From: a virus
IMG/VR virus record: IMGVR_UViG_3300022896_000001
Location: 1-58,395 of that record
Length of the DNA: 58,395 nucleotides
Strand: one strand, 5' to 3'
The notes below the pieces were generated by a model. The model did no database searches and had not been told where the DNA came from. It saw nothing but the letters and a program-made list of their open reading frames with translations. The position numbers and the translations under genes were made by a program. Positions 1 through 58,395 of this stretch are shown here, in pieces (position 1 is the first letter of the stretch; every line of letters starts with the position of its first letter).

Positions 1-127
1 AGGTTCGCCAAGCTGCCCTCGACAGGCTCGCCGCCGTTGACTTCGTGCCCGATGTGGACCCGGCCCGGTACGAGCGGATGCTGTCCGCCCTGCACGACCA
101 GGAGTGGCGGCCACTGCACACCCAGGT
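1..127. repeat. 127-bp terminal direct repeat, left copy
   Basis: Bases 1-127 are identical to 58269-58395. The length 127 is a common maximum assembly k-mer, and the reading frame of the gene cut at the window ends continues perfectly through the join. I therefore read this as the overlap left when a circular molecule is assembled, giving a 58,268-bp circle. A true short terminal redundancy is less likely. Confidence 0.93.
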
Positions 128-905
128 CGACTCGAACTGGATCCGGTGGTGCGAATGGCCGGACTGCCTCCGTTCGTTCAACGTCCTCACCGGACCGGAC
201 CCGAAGACCGACGGCGCGGGCTGGATCTACCTCCGGACCGGGACGCACCTCCTGCTCTGCCCCGACCACGCGAACGCCGGCCACCGGCCGCAGCACTTCG
301 CCGACTGGAAACCGGGCGACACCACCATCAACACGTCGTGCGAGTGCGGCGAACGCGGCTACGGGCTGGCACCCGCGAGCACCACGGTGTGCGTGGAGTG
401 GTGGCGCCACCACGTCCGCCAGCTGCCGGAGCAGCCTGCCGCCGAGGCTGAGCCCGACCAGGACCTGGTGCAGCGGACTGCGCGGGAGCTGGCCGGGTTT
501 CAGCTTCGGCTCGGCCCGAACACCTTGGCGGCGATCCGTGCCGGGCAGGACCAAGTGCTGCTCACCGGCGGCGAACGGGACGACGTCGCCCGTGCCGCCG
601 TGGCCGCTCTCCACGGCGGCACCCCACCCATCCGAGAGGACTTCACCCCCATGATCGACCTCGACGCCCAGGCCCAGCGTGAACTGCTGGAGCTCGCGGC
701 CCGCGCAGTCATTGAGGACCAGTTCGCTTCCACCGGCACCGTCCAGCGCAGGTGCAGGGTCGGCTACGCCACCGCCGAGCGGCTGATGGACCAGCTGCAC
801 GAGCTCGGCGTGGTCAGCCCAAGGGAAGGCACACGTGCACGCGACGTGCTGGTGACCGTGGACCAGGTGGACGAGGTCGTCGCCCGGATCCGCGGTGCGG
901 CGTGA
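1..905 (+). CDS. zinc-site protein with C-terminal FtsK-gamma-like winged helix (3' part)
   Basis: This is the 3' part of a 310-residue gene whose ATG is at 58241, across the circular join; the GTG at 45 lies inside it. The N-terminal half has Cys/His clusters (CEWPDC near residue 60, LCPDH, CECGERG) that could bind zinc. Residues about 228-295 resemble the gamma domain of FtsK, the winged helix that reads oriented DNA motifs: an alpha-helix, QRRCRVGYATAERLMDQL, then GVVSP and VLV. Its closest relative in the window is the 82-residue product of 57334-57582, two genes upstream on the circle. There is no ATPase domain, so it is not a translocase. It could bind the same motifs as the translocase at 4964-7120, or be an ordinary phage regulator; the family match is by eye. 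Confidence 0.8.
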   Translation, partial: VRQAALDRLAAVDFVPDVDPARYERMLSALHDQEWRPLHTQVDSNWIRWCEWPDCLRSFNVLTGPDPKTDGAGWIYLRTGTHLLLCPDHANAGHRPQHFADWKPGDTTINTSCECGERGYGLAPASTTVCVEWWRHHVRQLPEQPAAEAEPDQDLVQRTARELAGFQLRLGPNTLAAIRAGQDQVLLTGGERDDVARAAVAALHGGTPPIREDFTPMIDLDAQAQRELLELAARAVIEDQFASTGTVQRRCRVGYATAERLMDQLHELGVVSPREGTRARDVLVTVDQVDEVVARIRGAA

Positions 906-4950: not shown

Positions 4951-5041
4951 CTCACCTCACCCCTCACCTCACCCCGCCACCCTGTCCCCCACCAGCAGAT
5001 ACGGGGGAGGGGGTGGGTGAGGTGAGGTCCGTGAGGTGAGG
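4951..5041. repeat. inverted cluster of GGTGAGGTGAGG repeats at the translocase 3' end
   Basis: CTCACCTCACC occurs at 4951-4961 and 4963-4973, and its complement at 5016-5027 and 5031-5041, so two copies face two others across about 42 bp. The block overlaps the last codons of the translocase gene. A third cluster is at 7543-7584, on the other side of that gene. It could be a hairpin terminator, a protein-binding site or a recombination product. Confidence 0.7.
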
Positions 5042-7120
5042 CAGCTCGTACACCCCGATCGTCGGGTTCGCCAACCTCCCGGACAGCTTGAGGTCCGCGA
5101 GCACGTTGTTCAGCACGCCCTCGGTCGGCTCGGCGCCCGAGGCCGTCAGCCCGGCGCGGATGTCCTTGCGGCGCATCCGCCCACCGGCGTCGGTCACGAG
5201 CTGGACGATGCGGTCGCCCCACGTCAGGTCCGGTACCACCGCCTCGACGACAGGCGCGGGCAGCTCGGTCACCGGCGGCGCGGCCGGGAGCGCCTTGGGC
5301 TGAGGCATCACCTGCGCCAGGAACGCGTCCGCCTCGGCCGCGACCTCCGCCGCCTCGTCCCGCACCACCGGTGCGGGCTGACCGACACCGCGCAGGTAGT
5401 CGCGGTGCGCCGCGGTCATCCGCTGCGGGCGGTCCGCGTAGAACGCGCCCGCCGCGCGCGCCGACCCGGTATCCAGCGGGCGGCGCTGACCAGCACGAAC
5501 CCGCGCGATCTCCCGGACCGTGGGCCCGTCGTGCAGGCGCGGCTTCGCCGGGTCGGACTCCTGCGGGTAGAACAGCTTCGCGTGCACCGGGTCCCGGTGA
5601 TCCTGCACGTAGGCCTCGCCGGGGTTGTACAGGTTGGGCAGCCCGTAGAAGCGGTCGCCGAACGCTCGCCGCCGTTCGTCGCCGCTGGAGGACCGGCACA
5701 GCACGGTGACGCCCACGTTGTTCTTGATGCTGGCGGCCTCTTTGCCGAACATCTCGTGGTCGTAGTCCTGCGCCGACCACACCCAGTACACCTGCGCCGA
5801 CAGCGTCGAGCGGGCGCCGTGCCCGGTCAGCTCGGACGCGGTGTACTTGCGGCCCTCCCAGGTGATCTGCCTCGTCGTGTCCATGAGCACCCGCGGGGAC
5901 TCGGTCATCACGATCCACAAGGGGGTGAGGTCACCCTTTTGAGCTGCGGAAAGTCCCTGCCGGTAGCGGGCGACGCTCATCGCGGCGGCCATCATCTTCA
6001 GGGTGTCGTCCATGCCCTGCACCGCCCAGATCGGCAGGTCGATGTCCTCGCCGACGAACTGGTCGAGGTGGTCCTCCAGCGTTGCCCACACCTTCTCCGC
6101 GCCGCAGAACCACACCTCGCCACGCGCTTGGCCTTCAGCGACGACGACGTTCTCCAGCCCGGACTTGCCCGAGCCGGTGGGACCGACGATGACCCAGTGC
6201 TGGCGGGGGTTGACCTGCACGTCCTGGGCGCGGATGTCCAGGCCGATGGTCATCTTGTCCGGGTCGCGCGGGGTGGCGTCGAGCGCGGTGTAGGGCTTGG
6301 CCTTGGCCATGACGTCCTCGGTGGTCACGGTGACCACGACCCGCCCGGCGGCGCGCTTGGAGGTGACCTGCACCCAGTCGGTCATCATCTCCACCCCGGT
6401 CAGCGACTGGATCGTGGTCGCGATGACCTCACAGTCTGCGCTGGTCAGCGGGGTGAGGTCCTTCACCTTGAGCTTCGGGAACGGCTTGGACGGGTCGGCG
6501 GCGTGCTCGGCTTTCGCGGCGCGCTCGGCGGCCTGCAACGGGGTGAGCATCTGCAACTCCCACCAGCCGCCGTAGCCGAGCGCGCCGTCGGCGACCTGGT
6601 CGTAGTGGTCCTTGCCGATCTGGCGCAGCACTTCGGTCATCAGTCCGGCCGCGGTCGGCGGGACCTCGGCGTCCACGACGGAGGCCACATGCCGCTCGGG
6701 TACGGCGACCTGGGCGCGGGGCTTCACGTGGGTGACCTGGTAGTCCCACCACGCGGCGAGCACCCACTCCAGCGCCCCGAGCCCGACCAGCAGCCCAGCA
6801 GTCCACTGCCAGGTCCACAGGCCGTGCGGGGCGATCAGCGCCCACAGGGCGTGGGCGGTGGCCGCGGCGGTGGTGGCGCGCGCCATGTTCAGCCGGGAGC
6901 TGTAGCCGATCGCCTCGAACACCATGCCGCCGAGGAACACCGCGCGCGCCCACACAGTGACCCCGACCGCCGCGACCAGCACGACCAGCACGGCGGCCCA
7001 CGTCGGCGCGCCCAGCACGGCGGGCAGCACCGCGACCGCGCCGGTGGCGAGCATCCCCGCCAGCACGCAGACGGTCTTCGTGGAGACCTTCGGCTCGTCG
7101 TCGTCACGTCGCTGGTTCAT
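4964..7120 (-). CDS. FtsK/SpoIIIE-family DNA translocase, TraB/TraSA-like
   Basis: 718 residues; ATG at 7120 chosen for the GGGAG SD just upstream rather than the longer frame from 7165. The N-terminal third has about four membrane helices (residues about 15-125), then a linker and a RecA-type motor with Walker A GPTGSGKS at about 313-320. The Walker B equivalent reads PLWIVMTE (about 401-407), with Thr where Asp is usual. A C-terminal winged helix (DRIVQLVTDAGGRMRRKDIRAGL...) follows a Pro/Ala linker. This layout fits the actinomycete conjugation ATPases (TraB, TraSA) that pump double-stranded DNA through a hexamer. Flanked by the DUF2637-like, Gly-rich and small membrane genes typical of AICE transfer regions. 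A pure phage role cannot be excluded. Confidence 0.85.
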   Translation of the reverse strand: MNQRRDDDEPKVSTKTVCVLAGMLATGAVAVLPAVLGAPTWAAVLVVLVAAVGVTVWARAVFLGGMVFEAIGYSSRLNMARATTAAATAHALWALIAPHGLWTWQWTAGLLVGLGALEWVLAAWWDYQVTHVKPRAQVAVPERHVASVVDAEVPPTAAGLMTEVLRQIGKDHYDQVADGALGYGGWWELQMLTPLQAAERAAKAEHAADPSKPFPKLKVKDLTPLTSADCEVIATTIQSLTGVEMMTDWVQVTSKRAAGRVVVTVTTEDVMAKAKPYTALDATPRDPDKMTIGLDIRAQDVQVNPRQHWVIVGPTGSGKSGLENVVVAEGQARGEVWFCGAEKVWATLEDHLDQFVGEDIDLPIWAVQGMDDTLKMMAAAMSVARYRQGLSAAQKGDLTPLWIVMTESPRVLMDTTRQITWEGRKYTASELTGHGARSTLSAQVYWVWSAQDYDHEMFGKEAASIKNNVGVTVLCRSSSGDERRRAFGDRFYGLPNLYNPGEAYVQDHRDPVHAKLFYPQESDPAKPRLHDGPTVREIARVRAGQRRPLDTGSARAAGAFYADRPQRMTAAHRDYLRGVGQPAPVVRDEAAEVAAEADAFLAQVMPQPKALPAAPPVTELPAPVVEAVVPDLTWGDRIVQLVTDAGGRMRRKDIRAGLTASGAEPTEGVLNNVLADLKLSGRLANPTIGVYELPHLTDLTSPTPSPVSAGGGQGGGVR

Positions 7121-7143
7121 CGGATACTCCCTGCTCAGACAGG

Positions 7144-7192: not shown

Positions 7193-7483
7193 TCAGTCGG
7201 CTTGCTCGGCGGAGCGGCTGGTGAAGTGCGCCGACAGGAGCCGGTTCTTCTCGGCGTCGCCCTCCAGCGCGGCGGCCTTCGCGTTGAGCTCGGTGACCCG
7301 GTCGGGGAACTTCGCCGCGGCGCGGGCGTCGGCGCGCAGCCGCTCCGCCTCCTGGACGAGGGCGAGGTGGCGGGCGGAGGCGTCGCTGGCGGCCTCGTTG
7401 AGCGCGTTCTTGCGCTCGGCCGCCGTGGACTCCTCGGTGAGGTTCTCGAAGTGGTTCGCGAAGTCGGTGACGGCGACGGTCAT
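7193..7483 (-). CDS. internal in-frame product: 96-residue coiled-coil protein
   Basis: In the same frame as the 555-residue gene, ATG at 7483 follows AGGAGAG with ideal spacing. The product MTVAVTDFANHFENL... is Ala/Glu/Lys/Arg-rich and probably helical (AEAERLRADARAAAKF-like heptads). Its composition differs sharply from the Gly-rich part upstream, so this may be the true gene and the longer frame a fusion by lack of a stop. Both readings are possible. Confidence 0.5.
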   Translation of the reverse strand: MTVAVTDFANHFENLTEESTAAERKNALNEAASDASARHLALVQEAERLRADARAAAKFPDRVTELNAKAAALEGDAEKNRLLSAHFTSRSAEQAD

Positions 7484-8860
7484 GGGGTCTCTCCTGGTCG
7501 TGGTGATGACGTGCGATTCGTGGTGTTCGTGCTGTTCAGGGGGGTGAGGTGAGGCATGAGGTGAGGGGTGAGGTGGAGGTGAGGGCTTGCCCTTGTCGTG
7601 GTCTCTGGGCCAGGCGTAGTCGTCGACCGTGGACTGGCCGGGCCACACGTAGTCGTCGGCGGTCTGGCCGGGCCACCAGTCGGGCATCGGGTCGGTCTCG
7701 CCCTCGTCGATGCCCGTGGTGAACTTCTTCGGCGGGCCGGGCTTGAACGGGGTCCGGAGCGCGTCGGCCACGGCGTGCCCGTCGACGGCGCGGACCTGGT
7801 TGCCGACGAACGTGGCGAACCCGGAGTACGCGCTGCGGGCTCCGCGGCCGACCAAGCGCCACGCGCCGGACGAGTCCGACGACGAGCCGTGGCCCTTGCT
7901 GCCGCCTCCCGACCCTCCCTTGCTCCCGCCCTTGCCCTTGCCGCCGCCGTTGCCTCCGGACTTGCCGCCGCCGCGGGAGCCTCCCGGCGAGCCCTTGCCC
8001 CTCCCGCCCGACGGCCTCCCGCCTCCCGTGCCGGGGCTCCCGAGCCTCCCGCCCGACACCCGGTTCAGCAGGCTCCTGCCGCGCCCGCGGGACGAGGTGC
8101 TCCCGCCTCCCGTGCCACCCTTGCTCCCACCCTTGCCCGGCCCCTTGCCGGGAGCCCTCCCGCCGGACCTCCCGCCCGACCTCCCGGTGGAGCCGTGAGC
8201 CGACCGGGCTCCCGAGACGCCACGCGGGAGGAACCTTCCGAGGCTCCCGCCCGACGACCTCCCGCCCGACCGGGAGCCTCCCGACCGGGCACCGGACCGG
8301 GAGGACAGGAGGCCGCGCGCCTTGCCCAGGAGGCCACCCCGCCGGGAGGCTCCCGGGAGCCCTCCCGCCGTGCGCCTCCCGCCGGGAGCTCCCGCCTTGG
8401 CCGGGAACCTCCCGCCCGTGAGGCTGCGAAGCCGGGAGGCGAACCTCCCGTTGCGGGCGCGCGCCAGCCCGGACCTCCCGCGGCCTCCCGCCGACCGCAG
8501 CGCACGGCCGAGGCGGGTCCCGCCCAGCGCGCGGCCGAGCCGACCCGCGCCCGCCCGACGCCCGCCACGGCCGCGGGCCAGCTGCCAGCCCAGCGCCCCC
8601 AGCCCGGCCAGCAGCACCAAGCCGCCGAGGATCAAGCCGAGGGAAGGGCTGGCCAGCGACGACACCACCACCGCGGCAACCACAAGCAGCGGCACGCCGA
8701 GCCGGAGCAGCGCGGTGGCCAGCGGGACACCGGTGGTGCCGAACGTCGGCAGACCCTCCGGCTCGTCGACCGGCGACGCGGGTGCAGCGGCTGGCGAGGT
8801 CGGTGCGGGCCGAGGGCTCAGGGTGAGCGGGGGCCGCGGCGGCGGGGTCGGGGTGCTCAT
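7193..8860 (-). CDS. Gly/Arg/Ser-rich membrane protein of the transfer operon
   Basis: 555 residues in one open frame, ATG at 8860. It starts with a Pro-rich cytoplasmic stretch and two hydrophobic helices (LGVPLLVVAAVVVSSLA; LGLILGGLVLLAGLGALGW, about residues 52-90). A long low-complexity region rich in G, R, S and K follows (about 95-330), then a more ordered segment, a His/Pro-rich linker and a coiled-coil-like end. Its DNA carries the dense GGGAG/CTCCC array, including unusual AGG Arg codons in repeated Gly-Arg steps. Start coupled to the gene ending at 8857. A good internal SD and ATG at 7483 suggests the last 96 residues can also be made separately. Function unknown; position implies a role in transfer. 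Confidence 0.7.
   Translation of the reverse strand: MSTPTPPPRPPLTLSPRPAPTSPAAAPASPVDEPEGLPTFGTTGVPLATALLRLGVPLLVVAAVVVSSLASPSLGLILGGLVLLAGLGALGWQLARGRGGRRAGAGRLGRALGGTRLGRALRSAGGRGRSGLARARNGRFASRLRSLTGGRFPAKAGAPGGRRTAGGLPGASRRGGLLGKARGLLSSRSGARSGGSRSGGRSSGGSLGRFLPRGVSGARSAHGSTGRSGGRSGGRAPGKGPGKGGSKGGTGGGSTSSRGRGRSLLNRVSGGRLGSPGTGGGRPSGGRGKGSPGGSRGGGKSGGNGGGKGKGGSKGGSGGGSKGHGSSSDSSGAWRLVGRGARSAYSGFATFVGNQVRAVDGHAVADALRTPFKPGPPKKFTTGIDEGETDPMPDWWPGQTADDYVWPGQSTVDDYAWPRDHDKGKPSPPPHPSPHASPHPPEQHEHHESHVITTTRRDPMTVAVTDFANHFENLTEESTAAERKNALNEAASDASARHLALVQEAERLRADARAAAKFPDRVTELNAKAAALEGDAEKNRLLSAHFTSRSAEQAD
7543..7584. repeat. GGTGAGGTGAGG repeat cluster upstream of the translocase
   Basis: GGTGAGGTGAGG at 7543-7554, TGAGGTGAGGGG at 7557-7568, then GGTGAGGTGG and GAGGTGAGG to 7584, all in one orientation. 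Same motif as at 4951-5041. On the minus strand it encodes a Pro/His/Ser linker. Confidence 0.7.
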
Positions 8861-9271
8861 CCGGTCTGCTCCCGGTGCTCCTGCTCGGCGGCCTCGACGA
8901 ACTTCTTCGCCCGGGACGCCCCGATCCCGAGAGCCTTCTTCACGCGGTCGGCGGTCGGGAGCTCCCGGTGCTCCTGCTCCCAGGAAGCGATGAACTCCCG
9001 GATGTCCTCGTCGGAGCGGGAGGCCCTCATCGGGAGCACCTGGTGCTCCCGCCCCAGGGAGGCTCCCGGCTCTGCGGCAGCCTCCCGGTCGGGCTCCCGC
9101 TCGGCGGGCGGGAGCACCACGGGAGCTCCCGGCGGGAGCACGACGGCGGGAGCTTCGGGAGCCTCCTGCTTGCCGGGAGCCGGGACGCGGGCCATCACGG
9201 TCGAAGCGGGAGCCTGCTGCTCCACGGCGGGCGGGAGCACCTCCTCCTGCTCCGGGACGGCGGGAGCCTCC
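7904..9271. repeat. dense GGGAG/CTCCC motif array across two genes
   Basis: By hand I count about 58 copies of CTCCC or GGGAG in two blocks: 7904-8495 (about 36, mostly CTCCC on plus) and 8955-9271 (about 22, both orientations mixed). Roughly 4 would be expected in that length at 70% GC. Several form inverted pairs, e.g. GGGAGCTCCC near 8383, 8957 and 9121. The motif falls in several codon phases (GGG AGG, CGG GAG, CTC CCG, GCT CCC) and relies on codons that are rare at this GC (AGG, GCT, GGA). That argues for selection on DNA rather than on protein. FtsK/TraB-type motors read short repeated motifs, so a translocase recognition or clt-like role is my leading idea. Confidence 0.8.
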
Positions 9272-9735
9272 CGGACCGGCTCATCGTCCGCGCGGAGCAT
9301 GTGCAGCAAGGCCGCGGTCATCCCGACGATCGCGATCGGCAGGCACGCCACCCCGACCACGATCTGCCACGGCGCCACGCGCTGCCCGAACGTCTCCAAG
9401 AGGTGGTACGCCACCTGGCCCAGCGCGCCGAGCACGAGGGCGGTGATCCCGGAGACCATCGCGAACGTGCGGGTGCGGTCCGACATCGGCCGGGACGACA
9501 GCCACACCCCGAGCGCGTAGGCCGCGTAGGCCTCGATCCCGAGCGGGAGGGTGATCGCGGAGTTGATGACGAACTCGTCGGCGATGCCGGGCAGGAGCTT
9601 GACGGGGCCGAACCCGGCCTTCTCGCCGAGGCCGACCCACCCGGACCAGGTCGCGACGAACGCGGGCGCGGCGATGGCGATGAGCGGCCAGCGTCGGGCT
9701 CGCCCGTCAGCGGGGGTGGGCTTGGATCCGAACAT
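8857..9735 (-). CDS. DUF2637-like membrane protein with C-terminal HTH
   Basis: 292 residues; ATG at 9735 after GGGAGA. The first about 150 residues have four hydrophobic helices (WPLIAIAAPAFVATWSGW; INSAITLPLGIEAYAAYALG; FAMVSGITALVLGALGQVAYHLL; IVVGVACLPIAIVGMTAALLHML), matching the DUF2637 membrane proteins of Streptomyces plasmids and AICEs. A Pro/Glu/Ala linker follows, then a small HTH (SDEDIREFIASWEQEHRELPTADRVKKALGI, about 240-280). The linker DNA is full of GCT CCC, CTC CCG and GGA GCT codons that form the motif array. Overlaps the next gene by four bases. Probably a membrane partner of the translocase. Confidence 0.8.
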   Translation of the reverse strand: MFGSKPTPADGRARRWPLIAIAAPAFVATWSGWVGLGEKAGFGPVKLLPGIADEFVINSAITLPLGIEAYAAYALGVWLSSRPMSDRTRTFAMVSGITALVLGALGQVAYHLLETFGQRVAPWQIVVGVACLPIAIVGMTAALLHMLRADDEPVREAPAVPEQEEVLPPAVEQQAPASTVMARVPAPGKQEAPEAPAVVLPPGAPVVLPPAEREPDREAAAEPGASLGREHQVLPMRASRSDEDIREFIASWEQEHRELPTADRVKKALGIGASRAKKFVEAAEQEHREQTG

Positions 9736-57176: not shown

Positions 57177-57337
57177 CCGCGGTCTGGCACGCCTGCGACA
57201 CCTGCGGTGCTCGGCCCTGCCAAGGCGGGTGCCGCCGACGTACCGATGCCACCGGAAAAGCGCGCCACGGGTGCGCCGACATCCGCGCCTGCGTGCGCGT
57301 CTTCGATGGCCCTAACAAAGGAAGGCCCCGACCATGA
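57173..57337 (+). CDS. 54-residue Cys-rich protein
   Basis: GTG coupled to the previous gene. CDTCGARPCQGGCRRRTD ... HGCADIRACVRV suggests a zinc site. Unknown. Confidence 0.6.
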   Translation: MTAVWHACDTCGARPCQGGCRRRTDATGKARHGCADIRACVRVFDGPNKGRPRP

Positions 57338-57582
57338 CCACACCTGAAGCCCCGACCGAGCTGGAGCAACTGGTGCGCGCGGCCCGCCTGGTCATCGACA
57401 CCCAGTTCGGCTCGCCCAGCATGCTGAAGCGGAAGCTGTTCATCACCTACGACGAGGCCGCCCGGCTGCTGGGCGAGCTGGCGCGCTACGGCGTCGTCGG
57501 CCCGCCAGCGGCCACCCGCAAGGTCCTCGTCCCCTGCGGCCAGCTCGACGAAGTCGTCGACCAGATCCGCGGCGTCCGATGA
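57334..57582 (+). CDS. stand-alone FtsK-gamma-like winged-helix protein
   Basis: 82 residues; ATGA overlap. Residues about 10-60 (LVRAARLVIDTQFGSPSMLKRKLFITYDEAARLLGELARYGVVGP) align with the FtsK gamma domain and with the C-terminus of the gene at 58241/1-905 (shared RAAR.VI..QF, Y..A.RL, GVV.P, DEVV..IRG). No motor. May recognise a short DNA motif. Confidence 0.78.
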   Translation: MTTPEAPTELEQLVRAARLVIDTQFGSPSMLKRKLFITYDEAARLLGELARYGVVGPPAATRKVLVPCGQLDEVVDQIRGVR

Positions 57583-58241: not shown

Positions 58242-58395
58242 TGCTTTCACCCCTCAGCACACCCGCTCAGGTTCGCCAAGCTGCCCTCGACAGGCTCGCC
58301 GCCGTTGACTTCGTGCCCGATGTGGACCCGGCCCGGTACGAGCGGATGCTGTCCGCCCTGCACGACCAGGAGTGGCGGCCACTGCACACCCAGGT
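58241..58395 (+). CDS. 5' end of the FtsK-gamma-like gene that continues at base 1
   Basis: ATG at 58241 overlaps the previous TGA. The frame runs into the terminal repeat and, after removing one copy, continues to the TGA at 905 (310 residues). The first residues MLSPLSTPAQVRQAALDRLA precede the GTG at 45. Confidence 0.85.
   Translation, partial: MLSPLSTPAQVRQAALDRLAAVDFVPDVDPARYERMLSALHDQEWRPLHTQ
58269..58395. repeat. 127-bp terminal direct repeat, right copy
   Basis: Exact copy of bases 1-127. Remove one copy before any circular annotation, otherwise the gene starting at 58241 is counted twice. Confidence 0.93.

Follow-up and report, generated by a model that had tools for sequence, protein, structure and literature searches.

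The DNA analysed here (the window) is a stretch of 58,395 bp with a 128-bp direct repeat at its two ends (1-128 and 58268-58395), which marks it as a complete circular genome. It is the genome of a temperate actinophage and encodes a terminase, a portal protein, head proteins, a tape measure protein, a glycoside hydrolase 25 and an integrase. The same genome also has a conjugation-type module with a membrane-HTH protein, an FtsK-like ATPase and a GntR regulator. Three genes of interest (B, A and the FtsK/TraB-like ATPase) all lie on the minus strand (Table 1). Their order agrees with the original prediction, which placed a motor of the FtsK/TraB type, within a transfer-type module, beside the motif array described below; this ATPase, which ends in a winged-helix-like domain, is likely to be the partner of the gene B protein. 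Neither ParA/ParB genes near the array nor a rep gene beside it were recognised in the window. The last ~97 residues of gene A (7193-7483), which look like a helical protein, may form a separate in-frame gene, and the gene A counterpart in the related locus L093 seems to run on likewise across its contig ends. Both window proteins with FtsK_gamma domains come without a motor, flank the circularisation point on opposite sides and possibly read host KOPS.

Table 1 Features of the window that bear on the array.
Feature	Position	Strand	Description	Basis
Gene B	8857..9735	-	292-aa membrane-HTH protein, proposed array reader	AlphaFold2 model and homologues of the TM domain
Gene B, codons 16-151	9283..9690	-	Four predicted transmembrane helices; 1 CGGGAG	
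Gene B, codons 152-240	9016..9282	-	Disordered linker, most blocks pLDDT < 50, dense CGGGAG	
Gene B, codons 241-292	8860..9015	-	HTH-type domain of three helices (mean pLDDT ~94 when modelled within full-length B); sites present here too	
Array block 1	7906..8489	no strand	36 sites, mostly CGGGAG, inside gene A	Count and synonymous shuffle
Array block 2	8869..9272	no strand	23 sites covering the gene B codons for linker and HTH	
Gene A	7193..8860	-	Putative membrane segment (hydrophobic) and a low-complexity region rich in Gly/Ser/Arg; holds block 1	ORF and syntenic counterpart in L093
FtsK/TraB-like ATPase	4964..7132	-	722 aa, C-terminal winged-helix-like domain	Relative in the L093 record, weak PF01580 match
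Protein with C-terminal FtsK_gamma	45..905	+	Considered as alternative reader	PF09397, E=4e-19
Small stand-alone FtsK_gamma protein	57334..57582	+	Considered as alternative reader	PF09397, E=2e-12

Between positions 7904 and 9271, a direct count gave 59 starts of GGGAG or its complement CTCCC (22 and 37, respectively, with the last copy ending at 9272), against the 3.3 expected from the rate in the rest of the window. The original prediction had put about 58 copies in two blocks, one per ~16 bp, with about 4 expected; the count matches it closely, at about one site per 17 bp in both blocks. Across the whole window, every 500-bp bin outside 7.5-9.5 kb held 0-4 copies. C precedes GGGAG in 55 of the 59 sites and the hexamer CGGGAG occurs 54 times (1.2 expected), such that CGGGAG(C/G) describes the word better. 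As predicted, the array spans two genes, with block 1 in gene A and block 2 in gene B, and its sites occupy both strands and several codon phases. Block 2 ends where the membrane-domain codons of gene B begin; those codons are almost free of sites, and the 300 bp upstream of gene B contain no CGGGAG. Head-to-head pairs (GGGAG, a gap of 0-2 bp, CTCCC), likewise foreseen, numbered 10 against 3.2 expected under permuted orientation (p=0.0002), and with these pairs and the 22 versus 37 split in orientation the array is non-polar. A search for helical phasing of the sites found none, and their spacing is irregular.

Synonymous codons were permuted within each gene, which gave 9.7±2.7 copies of GGGAG/CTCCC for gene A (36 observed) and 13.0±2.2 for gene B (24 observed); in neither gene did any of 1,000 permutations reach the observed count. 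For gene B, none of 200 shuffles corrected for picking the best 6-mer did so either. These shuffles, proposed with the original prediction as a check, rule out a protein-driven or chance origin and uphold its view that protein selection hardly explains the motif. Codon use in the two genes also departs from the rest of the window as predicted: AGG makes up 27% of Arg codons in gene A and 4% elsewhere, and GGA and GCT reach 43% and 42% in the extension of gene B compared with 3% and 7% elsewhere. We regard it as virtually certain that the array is real and selected at the DNA level.

An AlphaFold2 model of the gene B product, built on 15 homologous sequences, predicted helices at residues 16-39, 59-79, 86-115 and 123-151, a low-confidence linker at 152-240 and a confident three-helix domain at 242-291. 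Both the membrane helices and the HTH domain, which was also modelled alone, are thus predicted features. Foldseek returned no meaningful match to the whole model and nothing below E=0.35 for the HTH domain alone, for which the top weak matches were DNA-binding helical domains (HTH, homeodomain and FtsK gamma), including the KOPS-bound FtsK gamma structure 2ve9 (E=0.87). A Pfam search found no match to DUF2637 (PF10935) in gene B or in its counterpart in L093.

Used as a query, the window FtsK found no viral or phage match and none in plasmids at 1e-5, with weak partial plasmid matches only at E<=10. The membrane domain of gene B was therefore taken as the query instead. It found Nocardia and Cellulosimicrobium plasmids, 79 genome loci and 21 viral loci, placing gene B relatives in actinobacterial plasmids, integrative elements and phages. 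The sequences come from assemblies and viral contigs, some of them incomplete, and related loci are mutually non-independent.

The closest relative, L093, forms one end of a viral record of 59.7 kb; the opposite end encodes an FtsK 37% identical to that of the window. This record is apparently circular, again with the gene order B-A-FtsK. Identity to the window is 47% for B, 36% for A, 39% for the HTH and 60% for the TM domain, and the C-terminal winged-helix-like domain of FtsK is conserved between the two; the window terminase had no match in the L093 record. The array of L093, CGGGAGG/AGGAGG, lies in the same two genes. The word has thus been kept in a relative with diverged proteins, a situation that the original prediction had suggested looking for. 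Its GGAGG raised the idea of a Shine-Dalgarno-like function, which we rejected given that other elements use unrelated words and that sites lie on both strands. When further relatives with the window HTH were sought in viral contigs, only the L093 record matched over this domain. The phage to which locus L091 belongs encodes a terminase 63% identical to that of the window, yet it has another HTH and the word CGCCAG.

Arrays were also sought across related elements, as had been proposed, using exact 6-mers against local backgrounds. About 30 of the 106 collected gene B relatives have a local array of their own word, mostly different from that of the window (GGTGC, TGCGCA, GTACC, GAACA, CGGACA, CGCCAG, GACCCC, TCTCCA and others). 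Thirty loci have an HTH extension at the C terminus; half of them (50%) had a local array score of at least 8, compared with 3% of control stretches from the same contigs, and median scores were 8.1 and 4.4, respectively (Mann-Whitney p=8e-11). Of 31 loci, 28 had more copies of their chosen word than synonymous shuffles produced. Of the exceptions, L018 has an array that fails to beat its shuffles, and L022 and L031 carry theirs in the 5' portion of the following gene (a translocase), not in the gene B homologue. In shuffles corrected for motif choice, p<0.05 was reached by 18 of the 30 C-type loci and by 11 of the 73 N-type ones; in most N-type relatives, which are typically AICE-like with a TraB-like gene downstream, an array at B was absent and counts were chance-like. 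A hold-out locus found later, L117, had its own array (CTGAC, p=0.002). In Nocardia plasmids, G(T/C)GAACA is densely repeated in the gene B homologue and in the intergenic DNA that follows, and L006 has ~10 GAACA copies within ~310 intergenic base pairs downstream of the homologue. Taken together, arrays very probably belong with membrane-HTH genes.

In Nocardia plasmids, CCCATATGGGC palindromes also lie in the stretch from ParA to the membrane-HTH gene (L004, 10975-11350; L005, 5400-6500; L006, 2820-3160); these are parS-like and distinct from the GAACA array. The L012 contig of Planomonospora (17.8 kb, assembly coverage 1222), which holds a GACCCC array and a VirD4-like gene, is possibly a high-copy plasmid. 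In Kribbella sandramycini (L030, 1-800), a GGAGCC/GAGCCC array of 22 copies (score 27) lies ~9.7 kb upstream of the B homologue and is unconnected to B.

Word similarity tracked similarity of the HTH extension when TM identity was controlled for (partial Mantel r=0.28, p=0.0005; this permutation test corrects only partly for shared ancestry). Among pairs with TM identity <0.8, mean word cosine was 0.147 for HTH-similar pairs versus 0.033 (permutation p=0.002), and at TM identities of 0.8-0.9 words were shared in 56% of HTH-similar and 3% of HTH-dissimilar pairs. Co-variation of HTH and word is therefore significant but modest. A partial natural swap is seen in L020, which is nearest to the L010 group in its TrwB-like protein (76% versus 59%), whereas by its HTH it belongs to the L035 group and in word counts it resembles that group. 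We treat this case as supportive only because the two words overlap. The case for a clean recombinant among the Nocardia groups proved weaker than hoped, with overlapping GGTGC and GGTGCGCA words. Two DUF2637 loci contradict a one-to-one HTH code: L145 has an HTH resembling the L081 one yet shows no CGGACA enrichment, and L178 has the CGGACA word with a different HTH class.

These observations suggest a model in which the gene B product is a membrane-anchored DNA-binding protein, with four TM helices joined by a flexible linker to an HTH, and the CGGGAG array is its cognate multi-site binding platform, laid over poorly constrained codons of B and A. At the inner membrane face, numerous HTH heads would grip the dense array and hold the DNA of the element at the envelope, most likely presenting it to the FtsK/TraB-like translocase encoded downstream (VirD4-like in other elements). 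The array would act as an address label working like clt or oriT, and HTH and word would have changed together in related elements, giving each its own address. Binding of the array by B is inferred, and a purpose in DNA transfer, not partition or silencing, is a further step. Transfer is the favoured role because homologues of B commonly adjoin DNA-translocating ATPases, that is, on the basis of gene neighbourhood only, and we consider it about evenly balanced whether the array system plays a part in it. The model as a whole, with B as a membrane-tethered reader of an address and the array as its platform for presenting DNA to a translocase, seems to us slightly better than an even bet.

B could instead tether the element to the membrane for inheritance, in a StbA/stbDR-like or centromere-like manner, with transfer playing no part. 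A membrane anchor combined with an array of sites would fit such tethering, and there are precedents in StbA/stbDRs, where an array-binding protein is tied to both stability and transfer (PMC3098194), and in SpdA2/sps, where a protein with sites in its own gene is tied to stability (PMC4170104). Although it encodes a phage integrase, the window circle could replicate as a plasmid-like prophage. Against partition, the Nocardia plasmids already have ParA beside the separate CCCATATGGGC palindromes, and B homologues also occur in integrative elements and beside translocases. We consider this explanation unlikely.

A second alternative is that B is a mere neighbour and that the array is read, like clt/TRS or KOPS, by the C-terminal winged helix of the FtsK/TraB-like motor or by the pair of FtsK_gamma proteins. 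The original prediction had pointed to such readers; its claims of DNA-level selection and of an adjacent motor were borne out, but the motor as reader was not supported. FtsK with its conserved C-terminal domain adjoins the array in both CGGGAG elements, FtsK_gamma proteins are encoded in the window and in the L093 record, the HTH of B itself weakly resembles KOPS-bound FtsK gamma, and reading of 8-bp TRS repeats at clt by TraB is established in Streptomyces (PMC4170104). However, the neighbouring or linked ATPase is TraG/VirD4-like in the array-bearing L012 and TrwB-like in L010, and of the loci with a TraB/FtsK-like cluster beside B, 53 lacked an array at B and only 9 had one. Among the array-bearing records searched, FtsK_gamma proteins turned up outside the window only in that of the closest relative, L093, which rules them out as a general reader and speaks against the suggestion that the two gamma-like proteins of the window read the array. 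A KOPS-like motif is ruled out by the missing polarity. The word, moreover, follows the HTH of B. For these reasons we judge a motor or gamma reader distinctly unlikely.

The membrane-HTH gene, by comparison, is common to nearly all array loci, and its homologues often lie beside translocation ATPases or are linked to them. As a reader, the HTH of B would be the most economical choice because the word follows it, because arrays occur with TraG/VirD4- or TrwB-like ATPases, because FtsK-like neighbours without arrays are common and because few array records have FtsK_gamma. We therefore think that the gene B protein probably reads the array, with the FtsK-like motor a less likely reader; the winged helix of FtsK stays a possible candidate for the window/L093 pair because it is conserved in both.

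B might also repress its own operon through the array, forming a membrane-bound repressive complex. HTH proteins often autoregulate, and the array overlies the B and A genes themselves. Yet it lies in coding DNA 3' of the membrane part of B, not in a promoter, and the 300 bp upstream are free of copies; usual operators have fewer than 59 sites, and repression does not require TM helices, making this reading very unlikely. Finally, the idea that low-complexity linkers, whose Gly/Ser/Arg and Ala/Pro runs can hold repeated codons, or local repeat expansion produced the repeats as a by-product with no binding function is largely refuted, and its probability is close to nil, given the failure of synonymous shuffles, the sites on both strands in several phases with irregular spacing, the excess of head-to-head pairs, the intergenic and element-specific words, and the word that the window and L093 keep despite diverged proteins.

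The array phenomenon extends beyond the family of gene B. Arrays were found with genes of DUF2637, a family that B does not match, at L147 (CAGCGC), L183 (GATCGA), L178 (CGGACA), L166 (CGAAAC) and L167 (GGGGAC). Two sets of DUF2637 loci were examined; in the larger of them, the second, controls were exceeded by loci with long extensions (p=0.007) but not by those with short ones.

AICE-like relatives without an array at B contain other repeats. At 11 loci (L036, L047, L049, L059, L062, L067, L071, L074, L075, L083 and L087), ~9-14 copies of CTAGC occur in a short stretch ~2.6 to 3.6 kb downstream of the membrane domain, about the end of the TraB-like gene; variants are CGCTAC in L032, L041 and L085 and CTAGA in L024 and L080. 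These stretches are candidate clt/TRS sites. A second downstream array lies at ~+4 to +8 kb in AICE-like elements, with a word that differs by group: ATCTCCGCA in L045, L047, L056, L075 and L082, TGTCAAC in L048, L057 and L079, and CGTCCCA in L064, L076-L078 and L080. It looks like another exchangeable protein-site pair.

To our knowledge, the way in which an actinobacterial element marks its DNA for TraB-type or other envelope machinery has been worked out in just a few Streptomyces plasmids. We tentatively suggest a widespread addressing system of actinobacterial mobile elements, in which exchangeable HTH heads on membrane proteins would each be matched to an element-specific dense array that labels DNA for envelope machinery, with pairs diversifying like a code. 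The arrays would be written into silent positions and disordered codons of their own and neighbouring genes. If so, phages such as that of the window would link a genome carried in virions to a module of the conjugation type. In ~30 elements, a candidate reader can be paired with a site word, which makes specificity testable, and possibly readable from sequence. Information at the DNA level bears on these coding sequences strongly enough to set the amino-acid composition, with Gly/Ser/Arg in the window and L093 and Ser-Glu-Gln and Val-Asn-Thr runs in Nocardia; this is a warning against calling such linkers protein-selected. No earlier description of such arrays was found in the literature searched, where a single paper mentions DUF2637 and the partial coverage of which makes this no proof of novelty.

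Several known systems share parts of this arrangement. KOPS and SRS, read by the gamma domain of FtsK/SpoIIIE, are likewise short, repeated, G-rich words, and gamma-domain proteins are encoded in the window, but KOPS are polar and chromosome-wide (PMC2680272) whereas the window array is non-polar and local. Centromeres of the ParB/parS type adjoin ParA/ParB genes, an adjacency not seen at the window array, and the ParA of Nocardia plasmids has its separate palindromes. Replication iterons are regular direct repeats beside a rep gene; the window array is irregular and in both orientations. In R388, the DNA-binding protein StbA acts with the stbDRs, an array of short sites beside the transfer region, to govern plasmid placement, stability and conjugation (PMC3098194). 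The stbDRs comprise ten ordered 9-bp repeats around a promoter, in contrast to the irregular arrays in coding DNA and the membrane-embedded proposed reader described here.

Among Streptomyces proteins, SpdA2 of pIJ101 is a plasmid DNA-binding protein with sites (sps) inside its own coding region (PMC4170104). It has 117-163 aa and a stability phenotype, and sps is one conserved 12-bp palindrome in 1-3 copies, common to all plasmids; here, by contrast, we find a predicted membrane protein, dozens of sites and an element-dependent word. Spread proteins of the SpdB2 type are integral membrane proteins of actinobacterial conjugation modules, comparable to the predicted membrane protein B, and, according to the same source, SpdB2 binds dsDNA and contacts TraB (PMC4170104, citing Tiffert 2007). 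Its binding is reported there as non-specific, whereas we propose a separate HTH domain with a cognate array.

The adjacent FtsK-like motor, a trait of TraB/clt, is present in the window and L093 and not in relatives of the L012/L010 type. In TraB/clt, the FtsK-like motor itself is the reader and the repeats are few; the repeat reportedly differs between plasmids, a finding credited to Vogelmann in 2011. TraB with the TRS octamer of clt in Streptomyces plasmids is likewise an actinobacterial membrane DNA-transfer system that reads short repeats (PMC4170104). Unlike TraB/clt, the arrays described here comprise up to 59 sites over coding DNA, the word follows a separate membrane-HTH protein, and arrays also occur in elements with VirD4-like ATPases.
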